A stretch of DNA of 39,494 nucleotides from a virus. The DNA lies in the IMG/VR virus record IMGVR_UViG_3300047548_000450, positions 1-39,494 of that record; one strand, given 5' to 3'. Positions 1,893 to 8,098 of the stretch are shown here, one piece after another (position 1 is the first letter of the stretch; each line of letters starts with the position of its first letter). Position numbers and translations under genes: made by a program. Under the pieces are notes generated by a model, which saw only the letters and a program-made list of their open reading frames with translations, did no database searches and had not been told where the DNA came from.

Positions 1893-2395
1893 TCTTCGGA
1901 TCCTTTTGCTTTGGTCATGAGGACCTGCATCGTCGCCAGCTCGGCGTCGGAGAGGTTTTTGAAGTCGACGGAGGCAACCGCGATCGGCGCGCCGTCCTTG
2001 CCGGTGTGCTCCATCTGCTGGGTTTCGCGCCAGCGCATCTGGGTCTTGGACCACCAGATGGCGGCGGTCGTGTCCCCTGCCATGGCTTTCTGGTGCAGCG
2101 TGCGGCCCACGCCGGCGTTGGCCTTGGCCTTGCCGCTCACCAGCTCGTTGCTGAAATGCGTGGTCAGGGTGTCAACGCTGATGCCGTCCCGGATAAGCAC
2201 GGCGATCTGGTCAAGGGGTAACCCGTAGCCCGAAAACGCCTCGACTTGCTTGCGTTCGTTCTCGGTCGGTTCGAAGGCCGGGCGGCCTGCGCCAGGCCGG
2301 GCACCCCCGCTGTTTGGCCTGGGTCCACCGTGCCCACTGTTTTTTTGAACAGGTTTTTCAGCAAGCTCAGCCTGCTGCTTCTTCTTTGTTGCCAT
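1889..2395 (-). CDS. terS: Terminase small subunit
   Basis: One hundred and sixty-eight residues. A Lys/Gln-rich, then Gly/Pro/Arg-rich N-terminus (GARPGAGRP, about residues 31-39) precedes a helix-turn-helix-like segment (YGLPLDQIAVLIRDGISVDTL), then LHQKAMAGDTTAAIWWSKTQMRWRE, a pattern typical of small terminases that bind pac/cos DNA and hand it to the large subunit. A 29-bp overlap with the 3' end of the methyltransferase gene upstream and an ATGA overlap downstream place it in the packaging operon. The family assignment rests on this pattern and on context. Confidence 0.85.
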   Translation of the reverse strand: MATKKKQQAELAEKPVQKNSGHGGPRPNSGGARPGAGRPAFEPTENERKQVEAFSGYGLPLDQIAVLIRDGISVDTLTTHFSNELVSGKAKANAGVGRTLHQKAMAGDTTAAIWWSKTQMRWRETQQMEHTGKDGAPIAVASVDFKNLSDAELATMQVLMTKAKGSEE

Positions 2396-3671
2396 TTTTC
2401 ACCTCAGCAAAAGTCTGTCCGGTGGCCTCGAGCGTGGCCTGTTTCCCGGTGAACTGCTCCCAGCGCGTCACGATGACGTCGCAGTATTTTGGGTCCAACT
2501 CCATCAAACGCGCAATTCGGCCGTTTTTCTCGGCCGCGATCAGCGTGGTGCCCGAGCCGCCAAAGCTGTCCAGGACCTGATCGCCGCCTTTGGTGTTGTT
2601 GAGCATCTGGTACTCGAACAGGGCCACGGGCTTCATGGTCGGGTGCTCGCCGTTGCGCGCGGGCTTGTCGAATTCCAGGATGGTGGTCTGCTTGCGATCG
2701 GCTGCCCAAAGGTGGCCGGCGCCCTCCTTCCAGCCGTAGAGGCAGGGCTCGTGCTGCCACTGGTAGTCCTGGCGGCCGAGCACAAGGCTGGACTTTTTCC
2801 AGATCAGGCACTGGCGCACGGTCCAGCCGGCGTCCTTGGCCGCGCCCCGGAAGTTGTAGCCCTCGCTGTCGGCGTGCCAGATGTAGAAAACGGCGCCGGC
2901 TTTCATGACCGAGTCGGCGGCGGTGTAGGCGTCGCGCAGGAACTGGCGGAACTGCTCATCGCCCATCTCGTCGTTTTTGATGGTGAGCTTCTCTTTGGTG
3001 CCGCCCTCGTAGGCCACGTTGTATGGCGGGTCGGTGAGCCACATGTCCACAAGTTGCCCACAGCACAGCTTGGCCAGGTCGTCCATGCTGGTTGAGTCCC
3101 CGCAAAGCAGCCTGTGCTTGCCCATGACCCAGATGTCGCCTGGCTTTGTGACGGGATCCGGTGGTACCGGTGGGGCCTCGTCGGGGTCGGTCAGGCCTTC
3201 CTCCAGGGCCTCGGGCATAAGGGCGTCAATCTCGTCCTGGCTGAAACCGGTCAGCTCCACGTCGAAGCCTTGGTCGAGCAGGTCCTTGAACTCCAGGGCC
3301 AGCATCTCGTTGTCCCACCCGGCGTTCAGGGCGATGCGGTTGTCGGCGATGACGTAGGCGCGCTTTTTGGCCTCGGACCAGCCGGTGGCCACCATGACCG
3401 GGACTTGGGGCATGCGCAGGCGCTGTGCGGCCAACGTGCGGCCGTGGCCGGCAATGATGCCGCCTTGCTCATCGACCAGGATGGGCGTGGTCCAGCCCCA
3501 CTCTTTGATCGAGGCGACGATTTGGTCGATCTGCTCTGGCGAGTGGGTGCGGCTGTTGCGTGCGTACGGGATCAGTTTCTCGATCGGCCAATGCTCGATT
3601 TTGTCTGCGGGATTTCCGGTGAGTTTTTCGGCGGTGATTTTTGCGGTGGATTCAGCGGGCTGATTTTTCAT
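2367..3671 (-). CDS. ParB-domain DNA methyltransferase (beta-class N6A/N4C)
   Basis: A 434-residue fusion. Residues about 25-115 form a ParB/Srx-like nuclease-fold domain (IEKLIPYARNSRTHS, then GGIIAGHGRTLAAQRL). Residues about 175-410 form a beta-class amino-methyltransferase: catalytic DPPY at 214-217, HPTMKP at 343-348 and the SAM-binding FGGSGTT at 370-376, in that order. It methylates adenine N6 or cytosine N4 using S-adenosylmethionine; the target site cannot be read from the sequence. No restriction partner is adjacent, so it is an orphan enzyme, probably protecting phage DNA or marking it for packaging or replication. The gene lies between the terminase genes and the repeat cluster at 3732-4063. 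Confidence 0.94.
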   Translation of the reverse strand: MKNQPAESTAKITAEKLTGNPADKIEHWPIEKLIPYARNSRTHSPEQIDQIVASIKEWGWTTPILVDEQGGIIAGHGRTLAAQRLRMPQVPVMVATGWSEAKKRAYVIADNRIALNAGWDNEMLALEFKDLLDQGFDVELTGFSQDEIDALMPEALEEGLTDPDEAPPVPPDPVTKPGDIWVMGKHRLLCGDSTSMDDLAKLCCGQLVDMWLTDPPYNVAYEGGTKEKLTIKNDEMGDEQFRQFLRDAYTAADSVMKAGAVFYIWHADSEGYNFRGAAKDAGWTVRQCLIWKKSSLVLGRQDYQWQHEPCLYGWKEGAGHLWAADRKQTTILEFDKPARNGEHPTMKPVALFEYQMLNNTKGGDQVLDSFGGSGTTLIAAEKNGRIARLMELDPKYCDVIVTRWEQFTGKQATLEATGQTFAEVKNGNKEEAAG

Positions 3672-3731: not shown

Positions 3732-4063
3732 CGCACAGGATCGCACGGGATCGCACGGGTAAATTCCCACTCCGGCTGTATTCTTCTTTGCGTGTGTGTG
3801 TGCGTGTGTGCATGTGATCATAGGCGTTTTATCCTGTGCGATCCTGTGCGGGGTTAAAAAACGTAATGAAATCAAAGGCTTGCGAGTTTTTTCGATCTTG
3901 TGCGATCTTGTGCGGCACAGGATTGATCTTGTGCGGCGTGAAAAAATCAGAATGGTTCGGCATCATTTTCCCAGTCGTGACGAAGCCTGATACCGACAAA
4001 AAGGTTCAATCTTGTGCGGCCGCCACCTTCCGCACAGGATGGATCGGTCGTTGATCCTGTGCG
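3732..4063. repeat. Iteron-like cluster of 10-bp repeats, candidate replication origin
   Basis: About twelve copies of ATCYTGTGCG or its complement CGCACRGGAT. Block A at 3732-3760 has three tandem copies (CGCACAGGAT, CGCACGGGAT, then a 9-bp CGCACGGGT). Block B at 3831-3850 has two tandem copies in the other orientation. Block C at 3895-3935 has two tandem, one inverted and one direct copy. Block D at 4009-4063 has direct, inverted and direct copies inside the 3' end of the primase gene. Tandem copies repeat every 10 bp, one helical turn, and an A/T-rich stretch (about 3852-3893) separates blocks B and C. This is how iteron origins look; a regulator-binding or partition site is the alternative. 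Confidence 0.8.
3790..3816. repeat. Alternating TG tract
   Basis: A purine-pyrimidine alternating run (GCGTGTGTGTGTGCG, continuing TGTGTGCATGTG) lies between repeat blocks A and B in the otherwise gene-free stretch 3672-3946. Such tracts can adopt left-handed DNA under negative supercoiling and are easily slipped. Together with the iteron-like repeats it supports a structured, non-coding control region here. No gene is visible in 3672-3946 on either strand. Confidence 0.7.
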
Positions 4064-6613
4064 GCCGTTCATCGGTTGGCTGCGCTTGATGCTCGGGAAG
4101 GCGGCCGAAAGTTGGCGGCCAAAGGACACCTTGGTGCCGGCGTGGTCCCGACCTTGGGCCTCGCACCACTTCTTCCAGGCTTTGAAAAGCTCGTCGCGGT
4201 CGACCTGTGAGTGCTCGCTGACAACGCACATTTCGTCGGCAAAGGCGCGGATGGGGCTGGTCTGATCGACCAGGTCTGAGGCCAGCTCGTCGGCCGAGGT
4301 GGGGCGTTGGAAGTAGCCGCGCTGGTTCAGCCGGGCCAGGCCCTCGAGCGCCCACAGGACGATCCCGGGCAGCTCCTTGAGCAGGCGGGCCGTGAGGCCA
4401 TGGTCCTCTTTGCCCAGGAAGCTCGTGTTGAACTTGAAGGGCAAAAATCGGTTGGCCAGGGCGGCCGAGGCGTCCGAGAAAGCGGGCAGCTCGTTGGAGG
4501 CCAAAACGAAGCGGATGGCCATCTTGCCTGACCAGGCGGTCATGTTCTTGCGGTCGATCGTGATGGTGTCCTCGCCCGAGATCCGCAGCAAGTTTTCCAC
4601 AATCGGTTGTTGATCGGCGCGGCCGGAGAGGCGGGCGTCCGAAATCATGGCCAGGCGCTTGCCGATGAGCGGCTGCAGGCCGAACTGCGTGCCAAGCGAC
4701 GCGAGGCTGGGGCTCACCCGGTTGGCGTACCCCACCAGGGCCTCCAGGATGCGCAGGATGGTGCCCTTGCCGCAGCGCGGGGGGCCGATCAGCATGAACA
4801 TCTTTTGCTGGCTGGTGTCGTCGGTCAGCAGGTAGCCGAACATCTCGGCCAGGGTGCTGATGGACTCGGGGTCGTCCGGCCAGAGGCTGTTCAGGAACTT
4901 GAGCCACTCGGTCGGCTCGTTGGCGCTCGGGTCGTAATCGAAGTCCAGGGAGGACACGCAGAACAGCCGGTCCGTCGAGGGCATGATGGTCCGCGTCGGG
5001 TGGTGCAGAAAGCCGTTTTTGAAGGCCACGATCTCGTGCGCGGGGAAGTCCCCCTGCTGCTGCTCGATCCAGACCTGGGGCTCGGGCAGGTCGGCGTAGC
5101 AGACCGCGCGCAGGGCGTGGGCCACGTCGTTGACCGTGCTGGTTTTTGGGTTGAAGGCCACCGTCTCGGTGTCGCCCGTTTTGGGGTGGGTCTTGAGCGT
5201 GACGCAGCCGGCCATGAAGTGGTACAGGCGCTGGTCGATGTAGACCCGGTCCCGGCTGACGTAGCGCGTGGCGTCCCAGCTGTAGAACTCGCCGCGCCAG
5301 TGGATGATGCGGCCGCGCTCGGGCAGCGTCTCGTGAAAAAGCTCGGCCGTCTTCATGGGCGAGCTCGAGAAGATCATCGGTTGATCGTGGGTGTCGGGCG
5401 GAATGTCGTCCGTGGCCCCGGGCGGGTTGGGCGGCGGGGGCGTGTGCCCGGCGTCGTCGGCCACGTCCTGGATGGGCGCTTCGTCGAAGTCGGGCGGCAG
5501 GTCGTCCCATGGCGGCTCGAAATCGGGTGGGAACGGGTCGGAATCGGTACCCGGGGGGGTGGGCAAATCGGTGGGCAAATCCTGCAAAGGCTGGTCTGCG
5601 CTGCCTGGCGGTGGCTCATCCGGTGAGCCTGCCTTGAGGATGCAGTCCTCGACCGCCGCCAGGCCCTCGGCCACGTGCAGGTCGTTGAAGTCGGTGCCGT
5701 TGCGCTCGCCGGACCAAACCGGGATGGCCAGCAGCGCGCCGGTGGCCTTGGCAGCCTCGCGGGCGTGCGTGATGCCAGGGTTGCCCCGGGTCTCGAAGTC
5801 GTCGTCGGCCGCAATGATCAGGCGCACGTTGGGCAGGGCCGCGCGGATCTTCAGGGCGACGTTTTCCAGGTTGCCTGCGTTGAAGGCCACGACCGTGCAG
5901 TAGTCGGTGGCCATGCGGATGGAGCAGCATGTGGCCCAGCCCTCGGCGATCACGACGGTGTCCTTGGGTTTGCCAAGCACCGTGTAGGCGCCAGCGGACG
6001 GCGTGCCCTTGAGGAACAGCTTGGTACCGTCTGGCTTGATGCGCTGCAGGCCAACCAGGCTGCCCGGGCCGTGGCGCATCGGTATCAGCAGCTCGTCGCC
6101 CAGCATGCGGGCGCCGTCGGGGTTGATCTGCTTGCGAGGTGGGTAGGGGTGGCCGGCGGGCTCCGTGGCCCGGGCCCACATCTCGGCGGCGCGGGTGGCG
6201 CAGGCCTGGCGCTCGCGCTGCGCTTGGGCTTCCTCGGCCGCCATGCGGGCCTCGCGCTCGGCGATGCGGCGGGCTTTTTCCTCGGGGTCGACCGGCTTGC
6301 GGTCCTGGGCGGTGGATCTGTAGCCGCCCTCTTTGGCCAGGGCGATCAGGGTGCCGATGGTGGCGCGGTTGGTGCCGCCGCCGGGTTTGCAGGATTTCCA
6401 AACGTCGCGGCAGTCGCGGCTGTTGTAGTTGGAGCCCTGCTGGCTCCAGGCGTCCCAGGCGTCGAAGGCTGGCTCGCCGAATTCTTCTTTGAGGATGAAG
6501 GCCATCTTCACCCAGGTGTCGCGGTCATCGACGCCGCGAACGTAGGAGAGCATTCGCTCTGCTGTCTCGAGGGAAATGGGGTCCCTTGGCCCTGTAGTTT
6601 TTGTTCGTTGCAT
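3947..6613 (-). CDS. Primase-helicase (PriCT, Toprim, D5/P4-type SF3 helicase)
   Basis: An 888-residue replication protein. Residues about 15-100 match the PriCT-2 type primase-associated domain (VRGVDDRDTWVKMAF, then WSQQGSNYN). Residues about 165-325 form a Toprim-like primase core: EGWATCCSI near 224 and the acidic IIAADDD at 266-272. A Pro/Asp-rich linker covers 330-410. Residues about 430-800 are the D5-N/P4-alpha helicase, with Walker A GPPRCGKGT (610-618), Walker-B-like LAMISDA (about 654-660) and LASNELP (about 704-710) as sensor motif. It should prime and unwind DNA at the phage origin. The last 40 codons carry block D of the repeat cluster, so origin and initiator gene overlap, as in P4-like replicons. 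ATG at 6613 is the first start after the promoter at 6711-6716. Confidence 0.95.
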   Translation of the reverse strand: MQRTKTTGPRDPISLETAERMLSYVRGVDDRDTWVKMAFILKEEFGEPAFDAWDAWSQQGSNYNSRDCRDVWKSCKPGGGTNRATIGTLIALAKEGGYRSTAQDRKPVDPEEKARRIAEREARMAAEEAQAQRERQACATRAAEMWARATEPAGHPYPPRKQINPDGARMLGDELLIPMRHGPGSLVGLQRIKPDGTKLFLKGTPSAGAYTVLGKPKDTVVIAEGWATCCSIRMATDYCTVVAFNAGNLENVALKIRAALPNVRLIIAADDDFETRGNPGITHAREAAKATGALLAIPVWSGERNGTDFNDLHVAEGLAAVEDCILKAGSPDEPPPGSADQPLQDLPTDLPTPPGTDSDPFPPDFEPPWDDLPPDFDEAPIQDVADDAGHTPPPPNPPGATDDIPPDTHDQPMIFSSSPMKTAELFHETLPERGRIIHWRGEFYSWDATRYVSRDRVYIDQRLYHFMAGCVTLKTHPKTGDTETVAFNPKTSTVNDVAHALRAVCYADLPEPQVWIEQQQGDFPAHEIVAFKNGFLHHPTRTIMPSTDRLFCVSSLDFDYDPSANEPTEWLKFLNSLWPDDPESISTLAEMFGYLLTDDTSQQKMFMLIGPPRCGKGTILRILEALVGYANRVSPSLASLGTQFGLQPLIGKRLAMISDARLSGRADQQPIVENLLRISGEDTITIDRKNMTAWSGKMAIRFVLASNELPAFSDASAALANRFLPFKFNTSFLGKEDHGLTARLLKELPGIVLWALEGLARLNQRGYFQRPTSADELASDLVDQTSPIRAFADEMCVVSEHSQVDRDELFKAWKKWCEAQGRDHAGTKVSFGRQLSAAFPSIKRSQPMNGRTGSTTDPSCAEGGGRTRLNLFVGIRLRHDWENDAEPF

Positions 6614-6710
6614 ACCTGGCGTCTGTTGGCTGGCGAATAAAAGGTGGGGCGGCCTTCGCCAGGGTCCGGCTTCGTCACCAGTGGATCAGACTGGTCAAGC
6701 CCCACCGGAA

Positions 6711-6727
6711 AGTATAAGCCTGTGCGG
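6711..6727 (-). promoter_or_regulatory. Probable leftward promoter of the primase gene with iteron-like site
   Basis: On the minus strand TATACT (6711-6716) is a near-consensus -10 box about 100 bp before the primase ATG; the -35 side (TGCGTT or TTGCGT, at 18-19 bp) is weaker. CCTGTGCGG (6719-6727), the core of the repeat found at 3732-4063, sits just upstream of the -10 box, and a second TGTGCGG lies at 6758-6764. A protein binding these could block the promoter. The promoter and its regulation are inferred. Confidence 0.45.
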
Positions 6728-6810
6728 GCGGAAAAACGCAACACCTGCAAAAATAAATGTGCGGTTTTGCGCAACGGTTGTGGTAGCATCCTCGCTGACG
6801 CCCGGCCGAT

Positions 6811-6839
6811 TTGGAGTTCAAGTAACTCGGCGATACAAT
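6811..6839 (+). promoter_or_regulatory. Sigma70-type promoter of the large RNA and tRNA
   Basis: TTGGAG (6811-6816), a 17-bp spacer and TACAAT (6834-6839). The predicted start is around 6846-6848, where the GGCGTC that can pair with the far 3' end of the putative RNA begins. It faces rightward, against both flanking leftward genes, and no credible protein gene follows, so its product should be the structured RNA at 6847-7418 and the tRNA. Confidence 0.65.
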
Positions 6840-6846
6840 CCGGTCA

Positions 6847-7418
6847 GGCGTCACATCACGCATGCGGCTTGCCGTTGGGGGTTCCCGGCGGACCGGACCA
6901 GGCCGCAGCCGTGATGGTGGAGGCGAAAGCCTGACGGAGATCCAGCCCGAGCAGTTCCTCGAACCGATGCGGCAAAAGCCTGGCAGGGCGGCTGGCACCA
7001 TCAACCAGCACGAGCGAAACGTTGAACGCGTCGAAGTGAAAGCAAGCCCGCAGGCGCCCACGGCGGGGATTCGTAGAAATATGCAACGTGACACCCCGGA
7101 GAGACGGGGACCATCATTGAAGCGGACACGCGAGGCGGTTGAGACCCAAGGGTGAAGGTAGTATTTCTGCCGAGTGGATGCCCCAAAGACCGCCTGTTAC
7201 GGGGAGCTGAGCCATGCCGGGAGTTGCGCACCGGCCCGCTTCAATGATGGTGAATGCGCAGTGCTGCCGCGTGACATTTGCCTGATGTTGTTGACCGAGA
7301 GCGTTCCAGACAGCGCGCAACGTGACTGATCGGTTCTAAGTCAACGCCGGAGATCAGCACCGGCCACCATCACCCCGCATCGGTCCTGGCCAATCGACGG
7401 GCATCAACAGGGACGCCG
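6847..7418 (+). ncRNA. Candidate large ornate non-coding RNA (GOLLD/ROOL-like)
   Basis: About 570 nt with no credible protein gene, preceded by a good promoter and followed 20 bp later by a tRNA. The 5' end GGCGTC (6847-6852) pairs with GACGCC (7412-7417), closing the molecule. Inside are: 6854-6860 with 6910-6916 plus 6863-6868 with 6902-6907; a CCGG hairpin at 6885-6896; a GNRA hairpin AGGC-GAAA-GCCT at 6921-6932; CCCCG-GAGAGA-CGGGG at about 7093-7108; a perfect 16-bp helix 7110-7125 with 7236-7251 that encloses 7133-7139 with 7189-7195, 7157-7161 with 7167-7171 and 7216-7220 with 7231-7235; 7290-7295 with 7340-7345; 7346-7350 with 7360-7364. Length, phage setting and tRNA neighbour match the GOLLD and ROOL classes, whose known members form large RNA-only assemblies. 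I cannot test membership, so it may be a new family. Confidence 0.65.
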
Positions 7419-7437
7419 GATAATCGTCACCGGCCAT

Positions 7438-7514
7438 GCCCTCGTAGCTCAGTTGGCAGAGCACCTGTTTTGTACTCAGGAGGCCGGGCGTTCGATTCGA
7501 CCCCGAGGGCACCA
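7438..7514 (+). tRNA. tRNA-Thr (anticodon UGU), CCA encoded
   Basis: Acceptor GCCCTCG (7438-7444) pairs fully with CGAGGGC (7504-7510), followed by A and the encoded CCA (7511-7514). The D arm is GCTC/GAGC with AGTTGGCA. The anticodon arm is CCTG/CAGG around a T-T mismatch, loop TTTGTAC, anticodon TGT (7471-7473). The T arm has the TTCGATT loop (7491-7497), but its stem pairs fully only if A7500 is bulged, so the arm has one extra base. It reads against the neighbouring genes, and its CCA directly abuts the stop of the VRR-NUC gene. It probably supplies ACA/ACG-type threonine decoding or is co-transcribed with the RNA upstream. Confidence 0.88.
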
Positions 7515-7826
7515 TCAACCCGCCAGCGCTCGTCTGGCATCCTCCACAGACCGCACGATCGATGCCAGCGCGCCACGCTTTTTCATGGCCGCGATGAACG
7601 CCAACTGCGCCTCGGTGGCCCGGCCCGTGGCGGTTTTCACCTCCAGGTAGAACGCCCGGGCGTCACCGGCTCTGTGGCCAAAAACATCAGCAAACCCGAC
7701 CGGCAAGCCCGAGCGCACCGGGCGGCCGTCCTTGGTGAAAAACAGCCCCACGTTGGCCCTGACCACGAAGTGCCCATCGGCGGAAAGCGCGACCATGATG
7801 GCGCGCATCAGATCTGCCTCGGTCAT
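7515..7826 (-). CDS. VRR-NUC domain nuclease
   Basis: One hundred and three residues. The whole protein matches the VRR-NUC fold of the PD-(D/E)XK nuclease group: N-terminal helix MTEADLMRAIMVALS, then GFADVFGH with the metal-binding Asp, FYLEVKTATGR with the E-x-K catalytic pair, and TEAQLAFIAAMKKRGALASIVRS. Enzymes of this type cut branched DNA, and phages often encode them beside helicases as here. The ATG at 7826 overlaps the stop of the gene upstream (ATGA). The gene ends flush against the tRNA. Confidence 0.93.
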   Translation of the reverse strand: MTEADLMRAIMVALSADGHFVVRANVGLFFTKDGRPVRSGLPVGFADVFGHRAGDARAFYLEVKTATGRATEAQLAFIAAMKKRGALASIVRSVEDARRALAG

Positions 7827-8098
7827 CGCCGGCCGTGCTCCCAAACGCGCCGCACCAGGGCCTCGAGCTCCTGGCACGCCTGCTCGCCGCGCACCTGCAA
7901 GATGCCGCGCTTGACCACCTTGCCCGCTTCCTCCCGGCCGCGCAGGTACTCGCGCCGGGCGACCTTGTCGGGGATGGACAGGATGTGGCGGGCCTCGCAC
8001 TCACGCGCCCAGGACGGACAGTAATTGCAAACCTGGTCACCGTTTATGAGCGTGACCATAGGCCCAGATTCACACCTTTGACAACCGAGACATGACAT
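7823..8098 (-). CDS. Small Cys-rich protein upstream of the VRR nuclease
   Basis: Ninety-one residues with an N-terminal Cys cluster (CLGCQRC, then VCNYCPSWARECEARHIL) followed by a basic helical part (IPDKVARREYLRGREEAGKVVKRG). The Cys spacing suggests a metal-binding knuckle. I recall similar small proteins (DUF7696-like) next to phage replication genes, but this label is uncertain. Its first 29 bp overlap the 3' end of the HNH gene upstream, and the local base composition there is A/T-richer than the rest of the gene. Confidence 0.75.
   Translation of the reverse strand: MSCLGCQRCESGPMVTLINGDQVCNYCPSWARECEARHILSIPDKVARREYLRGREEAGKVVKRGILQVRGEQACQELEALVRRVWEHGRR

Follow-up and report, generated by a model that had tools for sequence, protein, structure and literature searches.

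The window analysed here, an IMG/VR record of 39,494 bases, encodes a primase, a helicase, a ParB-methyltransferase protein, a RecE-like exonuclease and tail-fibre genes. The closest primases in the phage collection share less than 40% identity with that of the window, and the host is therefore not fixed by primase comparison. The ParB-methyltransferase protein (2367-3671) is a single protein, separate parts of which match ParB-like and DNA methyltransferase families. A noncoding stretch (6614-7514) containing the RNA locus, which is read on the plus strand, is located between the leftward primase gene (3947-6613) and a leftward nuclease gene (7515-8000). Several small ORFs run across the RNA region, and no ORF in 6614-7514 has a PHROGs family match on either strand, in agreement with the original prediction that a credible protein gene is absent; on this basis a protein-coding reading of the region was rejected. 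A tRNA had also been predicted downstream on the same strand, and a tRNA-Thr gene indeed begins 20 bp after the claimed end of the RNA, its terminal CACCA being followed by TCAACC as at module ends (Table 1). Rfam covariance models otherwise return chance matches in the window, even at E<=10 with permissive filters. The upstream promoter, originally described as near-consensus, matches the consensus at three of six positions in TTGGAG and five of six in TACAAT and is not listed by the sigma-70 scan, and a terminator scan of 6600-7800 found no intrinsic terminator on the plus strand.

Table 1. Features of the RNA locus and its surroundings in the window.
Feature	Position	Strand	Elements	Evidence
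Candidate promoter	6811..6839	+	TTGGAG-17-TACAAT	weak, 8/12 consensus bases
A module	6854..6916	+	outer helix 6854-6860/6910-6916 (CATCACG/CGTGATG), then CAT/AGC internal loop; inner helix begins GCGGCTTG 6864-6871 paired to CAGGCCGC 6899-6906	fold; covarying relatives
First Y module	6912..7003	+	closing stem TGATGGTG 6912-6919/CACCATCA 6996-7003	sequence, fold
Small hairpin before second unit	7094..7109	+	CCCCG-GAGAGA-CGGGG	fold
X module	7110..7251	+	closed by perfect 16-bp helix 7110-7125/7236-7251	sequence; fold
B module (second Y module)	7245..7372	+	closing stem 7245-7252/7365-7372; AA 7253-7254; D-arm-like hairpin 7255-7259/7269-7273; T-arm-like hairpin 7346-7350/7360-7364; kissing pair TGCTG 7262-7266 with CAGCA 7355-7359	covariance model, covariation, sequence matches in unrelated phages and plasmids
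Hypervariable insert of B module, 72 nt	7274..7345	+		aligned position
tRNA-Thr (anticodon TGT)	7438..7514	+		ARAGORN and Rfam

The locus had been interpreted as one closed unit of about 570 nt. The whole 571-nt stretch folds with a z of only -1.83 against shuffles, of which 4/100 were as good (other strand, z -0.27), whereas single modules fold far better, with z values of -4.3 for 6852-6917 (A module) and -3.3 for 7107-7254 (X module), each matched by 0/200 shuffles, and -2.5 for 7243-7376 (B module; 4/200). The two ends proposed to close the unit, GGCGTC (6847-6852) and GACGCC (7412-7417), are complementary over 6 bp, but their pairing is unsupported because the spacer (7005-7107, z +2.0) and the 3' end (7376-7437, z +0.3) fold no better than chance. 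Since the modules fold one by one while the spacer and the end pairing do not, the locus represents an array, and a single closed 570-nt fold was rejected. Two local elements of the earlier description persist within the array, namely the perfect 16-bp helix, which is present in the sequence, and the GNRA hairpin, seen as a GAAA hairpin in the fold of 6907-7005.

Comparison with relatives shows that the locus encodes a putative structured noncoding RNA, on the plus strand, composed of tandem units, each consisting of a long helix module (A or X) followed by a predicted tRNA-like Y module, and that the second Y module of the window belongs to the B type. We estimate a probability of about 0.9 that it belongs to a modular family of structured RNAs not described before. 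The proposal of a noncoding structured phage RNA beside a tRNA is supported by homologues with compensatory changes, paired positions covarying in both the A and the B modules, and by the lack of a coding signature. The accompanying suggestion of a new class in a proteobacterial phage survives as a new modular family, although not in the kind and shape first described.

The A module is a two-storey helix with a CAU/AGY internal loop that is invariant across relatives. Searching the fetched loci for it yielded 55 matches at 46 distinct sites, against none in shuffles, which serve as a fair control because site selection required pairing. Among 31 distinct sequences, 11 of the 16 pairs changed on both sides, and the window likewise has the covarying outer and inner helices around CAU/AGY. 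One pair is U-G in 28/31 sequences, so only the plus-strand RNA can form it. The first Y module, whose 5' strand overlaps the 3' strand of the A module, holds the GAAA hairpin and is the weakest part of the array (fold z just -0.9). Short hairpins like that preceding the second unit were also found ahead of units in L014, L077 and L112 by comparison by eye.

A blastn search of the region against plasmids and phages returned short matches in noncoding parts of unrelated phage-like elements, all at the motif GCCGGAGATCAGCACCGGCCACC. This motif is the T-arm-like half of the B module; the other half, GGTGAATGCGCAGGCTGATGCGC, lies 6-178 nt upstream. The module plan, 5' to 3', consists of a 7-8-bp closing stem, AA, a D-arm-like hairpin with loop AGGCTGA(T), the insert, a 5-bp hairpin with loop AGATCAGCA and the closing stem, as derived from 122 occurrences for which a script located a candidate for the module's other half; the closing stem comprises 7-8 uninterrupted pairs in 97 of them. 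Comparison shows that the insert takes the place of the anticodon arm of a tRNA. The window contains each of these elements (covarying closing stem, AA, D- and T-like hairpins with kissing loops, insert), and its D-like stem includes two G-U pairs. A covariance model built from 52 sequences, including the window, matches 7244-7374 with 42.5 bits (E 1.1e-10), and membership of the window had been found earlier and independently by blastn.

Across 52 distinct cores, 12 of the 24 pairs in the closing stem and the D- and T-hairpins changed on both sides and 94% of cells were paired, values matched by 0/500 shuffles; sliding the partner by one column reduced pairing to about 30%. Column pair 5-58, for example, is UA in 36 cores, GC in 8, AU in 6 and CG in 2, with no unpaired case. 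When searches for loops departing from the common sequence were included, the T-loop/D-loop combinations TCAGC/GCTGA (130), TCAGT/ACTGA (28) and the G-U-containing TCAGT/GCTGA (31) contrasted with just 4 cases of the mismatch TCAGC/ACTGA, and thus the kissing contact itself covaries. The T stem occurs as GCCGG/CCGGC (148) and GCTGG/CCAGC (32), and the invariance of the kissing loops and T arm in A1 is partly a product of the search motif. Furthermore, a scan based on geometry only identified 134 modules in about 3.2 Mb, counting both strands, and 0 in shuffled sequence.

Upstream of 20 other B modules, a helix of 13 bp or more lies in identical register but differs in sequence (e.g. L089, L099, L006 and L055), as exemplified by CCATCATCAAAGCGG/CCGCTTTGATGATGG in L089. 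When an internal loop was allowed (score >=14), a helix was found ahead of 92/185 B modules vs 13 in shuffled sequence. The 3' strand of the X helix is also the 5' strand of the B closing stem, so that the two pairings are mutually exclusive over 5-8 bases; in the first unit, 6912-6916 is likewise common to the A helix and the Y closing stem.

The exact 19-mer GAGATCAGCACCGGCCACC occurs in at least 119 stretches of IMG/VR, and 58 stretches of genome contigs carry the motif, including contigs of Pseudomonas, Enterobacter, Pantoea, Erwinia, Variovorax, Acidovorax, Comamonas, Pseudoxanthomonas, Halomonadaceae and others; the few matches in other phyla look like chance or misbinned contigs. The element is also present in 126 phage records, in prophages and in phage P1. 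The predicted tRNA-like building blocks recur, unannotated, in hundreds of proteobacterial phages and prophages, where they lie in regions lacking annotation or beneath ORF calls of doubtful value. In P1, the genes plp and upl (L301, 1273-1842) are annotated antisense across a tRNA-Thr and the RNA array and probably do not represent real genes. Of 5,426 complete E. coli genomes, 1,229 contain sequence resembling one enterobacterial member, some matches covering just part of the query. Prevalence in whole genomes, counted with the exact motif, was 6/198 in family genomes around an Enterobacter prophage carrier, 2/300 in order genomes around an Acidovorax carrier and 1/369 in class genomes, namely the seed; in an actinobacterial control it was 1/296, again the seed alone and without model support. 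Homology was detected at the level of the modules, on which the evidence for a family rests, and not for the 571-nt arrangement as a whole.

The genomic context of the modules varies. They follow the antitermination gene Q in L003 and L125, and in an E. coli prophage (L130) they separate a repressor gene from yfdP. In L001 they are close to terminase and head genes, in L124 they belong to the tRNA region of Ackermannviridae, in P1 (NC_005856, about 68.9-70.2 kb) they lie between dmt and tciA, and in the window between primase and nuclease. The lack of a fixed neighbour would make a cis-regulatory leader unlikely, and the varied context argues for a trans-acting RNA. A tRNA gene was located within 1 kb of 32/284 modules of the fetched loci, on the same strand in 31 cases, with about 12 expected. 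The tRNA neighbour of the original prediction thus reflects a tendency across loci but no rule, and constant association with a tRNA was rejected (just 11% of modules). In Stutzerimonas stutzeri KOS6 (L132), a DUF3800-VII RNA (RF02967; 2852-2963) starts within ten bases of the end of a B module, with an int-alpA RNA 800 bp upstream.

Related loci hold one to several units, and L077 and L039 have repeated A modules. The inserts of relatives range from 6 to 178 nt and fall into 149 clusters among 206. In 26 locus pairs the insert is common but the flanks are not, and in 5 pairs a flank is common but the insert is not. Furthermore, the P1-like plasmid of E. coli H8 (L128, 1502-1720) differs from P1 (L301) by one extra unit of ~196 bp between 99%-identical arms, with a shared 23-nt repeat, and the last (STnc100) unit has a different insert from that of P1. 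The ~196-bp difference at the 23-nt repeat is direct evidence of unit gain or loss. Taken with the insert and flank comparisons, it shows that phages gain and lose units and inserts and exchange them with one another. The exchange of cassettes and the indel of unit size flanked by direct repeats would also suit an element acting at the DNA level, i.e. a platform for recombination or integration of cassettes whose inverted repeats form DNA hairpins; this is very improbable, since one-strand G-U pairs (the A-module U-G pair and the 31 G-U kissing pairs) need RNA and the siblings of the locus are expressed sRNAs. The high divergence of the inserts, together with the small ORFs crossing the region, could alternatively indicate non-functional debris of tRNA genes or of a short protein gene, a reading that is contradicted by the covariation and the absence of a protein-family match and that we consider scarcely credible.

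Considering these features, we tentatively favour, at somewhat less than even odds, a model by analogy with PasD/STnc100 in which the conserved modules would form a scaffold that folds, protects and presents an exchangeable insert. The RNA would act in trans during infection or lysogeny, with the inserts conferring specificity, most likely by pairing to RNAs of the host or the phage, like the sibling prophage sRNAs PasD and STnc100. The base-pairing function is borrowed from this sibling, since STnc100 lacks B-type arms. Possible roles of the competing helix are timing or gating of the fold and the marking of a processing site. Strong structure was not seen in the inserts (mean fold z -0.5), which suits accessible segments but proves nothing, and anti-Shine-Dalgarno seeds are not enriched in B inserts. 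The latter result weighs against the model, as do the weak promoter and the missing plus-strand terminator.

Several arrays also contain GCGACTTTGCGG...TTTAGAAACTGACCA...AAAT followed by GCA AAC GAT GAT, four hydrophobic codons and GCG GCN TAA, which encode the tags ANDDLMMVAA*, ANDDLMLMAA*, ANDDVVLMAA*, ANDDVILMAA* and ANDDAVLMAA*. The SsrA tag of E. coli is ANDENYALAA. This element was identified in P1 (L301, NC_005856, about 690-790) and in L124, L128, L170, L107, L030, L143 and L302-L305, and similar sequence occurs in 449 phage records, including the BASEL phages Bas77-81. The element is missed by ARAGORN, and its Rfam tmRNA scores fall below the threshold. In the window, the tag element was not seen and ARAGORN found no tmRNA. 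An exhaustive search in 2014 reported mycobacteriophages and Bacillus phage G as the only viruses with ssrA (PMC4131195).

The tRNA-like order of the B module could alternatively reflect mimicry of tRNA or tmRNA, whereby modules bind or sponge SmpB, EF-Tu, RNase P or a tRNA-cutting defence nuclease, so that trans-translation would be inhibited or phage tRNAs shielded and the inserts would be drifting filler. A closing stem, a 2-nt linker, a D-like arm, a variable part and a 5-bp T-like arm without linker follow the order of a tRNA, modules tend to adjoin tRNA genes, and the arrays of P1, Magnus and other loci carry the unannotated tmRNA-like tag ANDD....AA*. Precedents are a tmRNA of mycobacteriophage DS6A that is nearly TLD-only and a similar molecule reported to inhibit tmRNA, perhaps by titrating SmpB (PMC4131195). 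We nevertheless regard mimicry as rather unlikely, as tRNA and tmRNA models give the B module no score, its loops form a 5-6-bp kissing pair instead of canonical T and D loops, a free CCA end is lacking (N73-CCA fits 23/254 module tails) and the window shows no tag. Canonical tRNA T-arms were rejected as a general feature of the modules, with 11 non-tRNA matches vs about 4 in shuffles. In the Salmonella phage Akira (L303, about 1610-1860), a Y module has a long insert flanked by apparent D-arm and TTCGATT T-arm sequences and could possibly be an intermediate between a tRNA and the B module.

A wider picture, less likely than not, would be a hitherto unrecognised and very widespread class of modular phage RNAs with arrays of tRNA-like scaffolds, exchangeable inserts and a built-in helix switch. 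In some phages, among them P1, these would be accompanied by a tmRNA-like RNA carrying a degradation tag of its own, and together they might constitute a toolkit aimed at host translation or host RNAs. The module recurs in numerous phages, prophages and phage-plasmids that are not related to each other, the textbook phage P1 among them, and phages would thus carry a modular RNA kit of exchangeable tRNA-like blocks. Such a family would explain hypervariable noncoding gaps beside phage tRNAs and, as P1 and relatives carry the module, is testable at once in laboratory E. coli.

Compared with known RNAs, the B module shares with tRNA and the tRNA-like domain of tmRNA the order of closing stem, D-like arm, replaced anticodon region, 5-bp T-like arm and closing stem. 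Contrastingly, models of these RNAs do not recognise it, a 5-6-bp Watson-Crick kiss joins its D and T loops, and the array RNA runs on past the closing stem; only 7438-7514 qualifies as a tRNA in the window.

GOLLD and ROOL are likewise large phage RNAs, often near tRNAs, with kissing loops and a variable linker (PMC12286853), but each has one large conserved fold rather than repeated small units. The original prediction considered membership in these classes, which was dismissed as neither they nor any other Rfam family match the window RNA at the gathering cut-off or at E<=10. As ROOL and GOLLD have conserved kissing loops together with a variable linker that is disordered (PMC12286853), and as the competing strands could pair between molecules, the array might oligomerise into a scaffold or cage in which kissing loops and exchanged strands link the units and the inserts form disordered loops of cargo. 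This is improbable, given that sequence or model similarity to GOLLD/ROOL is absent, that modules occur singly and in varying number, unlike a fixed cage monomer, and that the kissing loops lie within one module, fitting an intramolecular contact.

The nearest known siblings of the modular RNA are STnc100-type sRNAs, and the base-pairing scaffold that we favour is modelled on them. PasD and STnc100 share ancestry according to a 2026 preprint, and tRNA and STnc100 matches are frequent around Pas genes (PMC13192938). PasD depends on Hfq for its stability and has partners in RIL-seq data (PMC8550237), and an STnc100 copy was verified in EHEC by Northern blot (PMC5331693). The last unit of P1-like arrays is scored by the STnc100 model (RF02076; E 2e-6 in L128 and 1e-3 in P1), and Magnus has STnc100 above the gathering score within its array. 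In a Klebsiella Ackermannviridae phage (L124, 3854-4068), STnc100 also exceeds the gathering threshold, within about 2 kb of tiny predicted ORFs, an arrangement resembling a long RNA array. Like the array, STnc100 and PasD are prophage-borne, lie near tRNAs and the Q/lysis region and contain a variable insert, and the closing stem of STnc100 (GGTGAA...CACC), which follows an X helix, is of the same style. STnc100 differs in having no B-type kissing arms, the window has no RF02076 match even at E<=10, and Pas sRNAs end in terminators (PMC13192938), whereas none was found at the window locus. The corresponding papers treat single E. coli sRNAs (PMC13192938, PMC8550237, PMC5331693). In the literature searched, which mostly excluded preprints and subscription papers, a modular family, a kissing tRNA-like module or arrays were not described beyond STnc100/Pas. 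STnc100 and PasD are known as single enteric sRNAs of ~200 nt and not as a modular family across Proteobacteria; they would become single units of a larger modular system.
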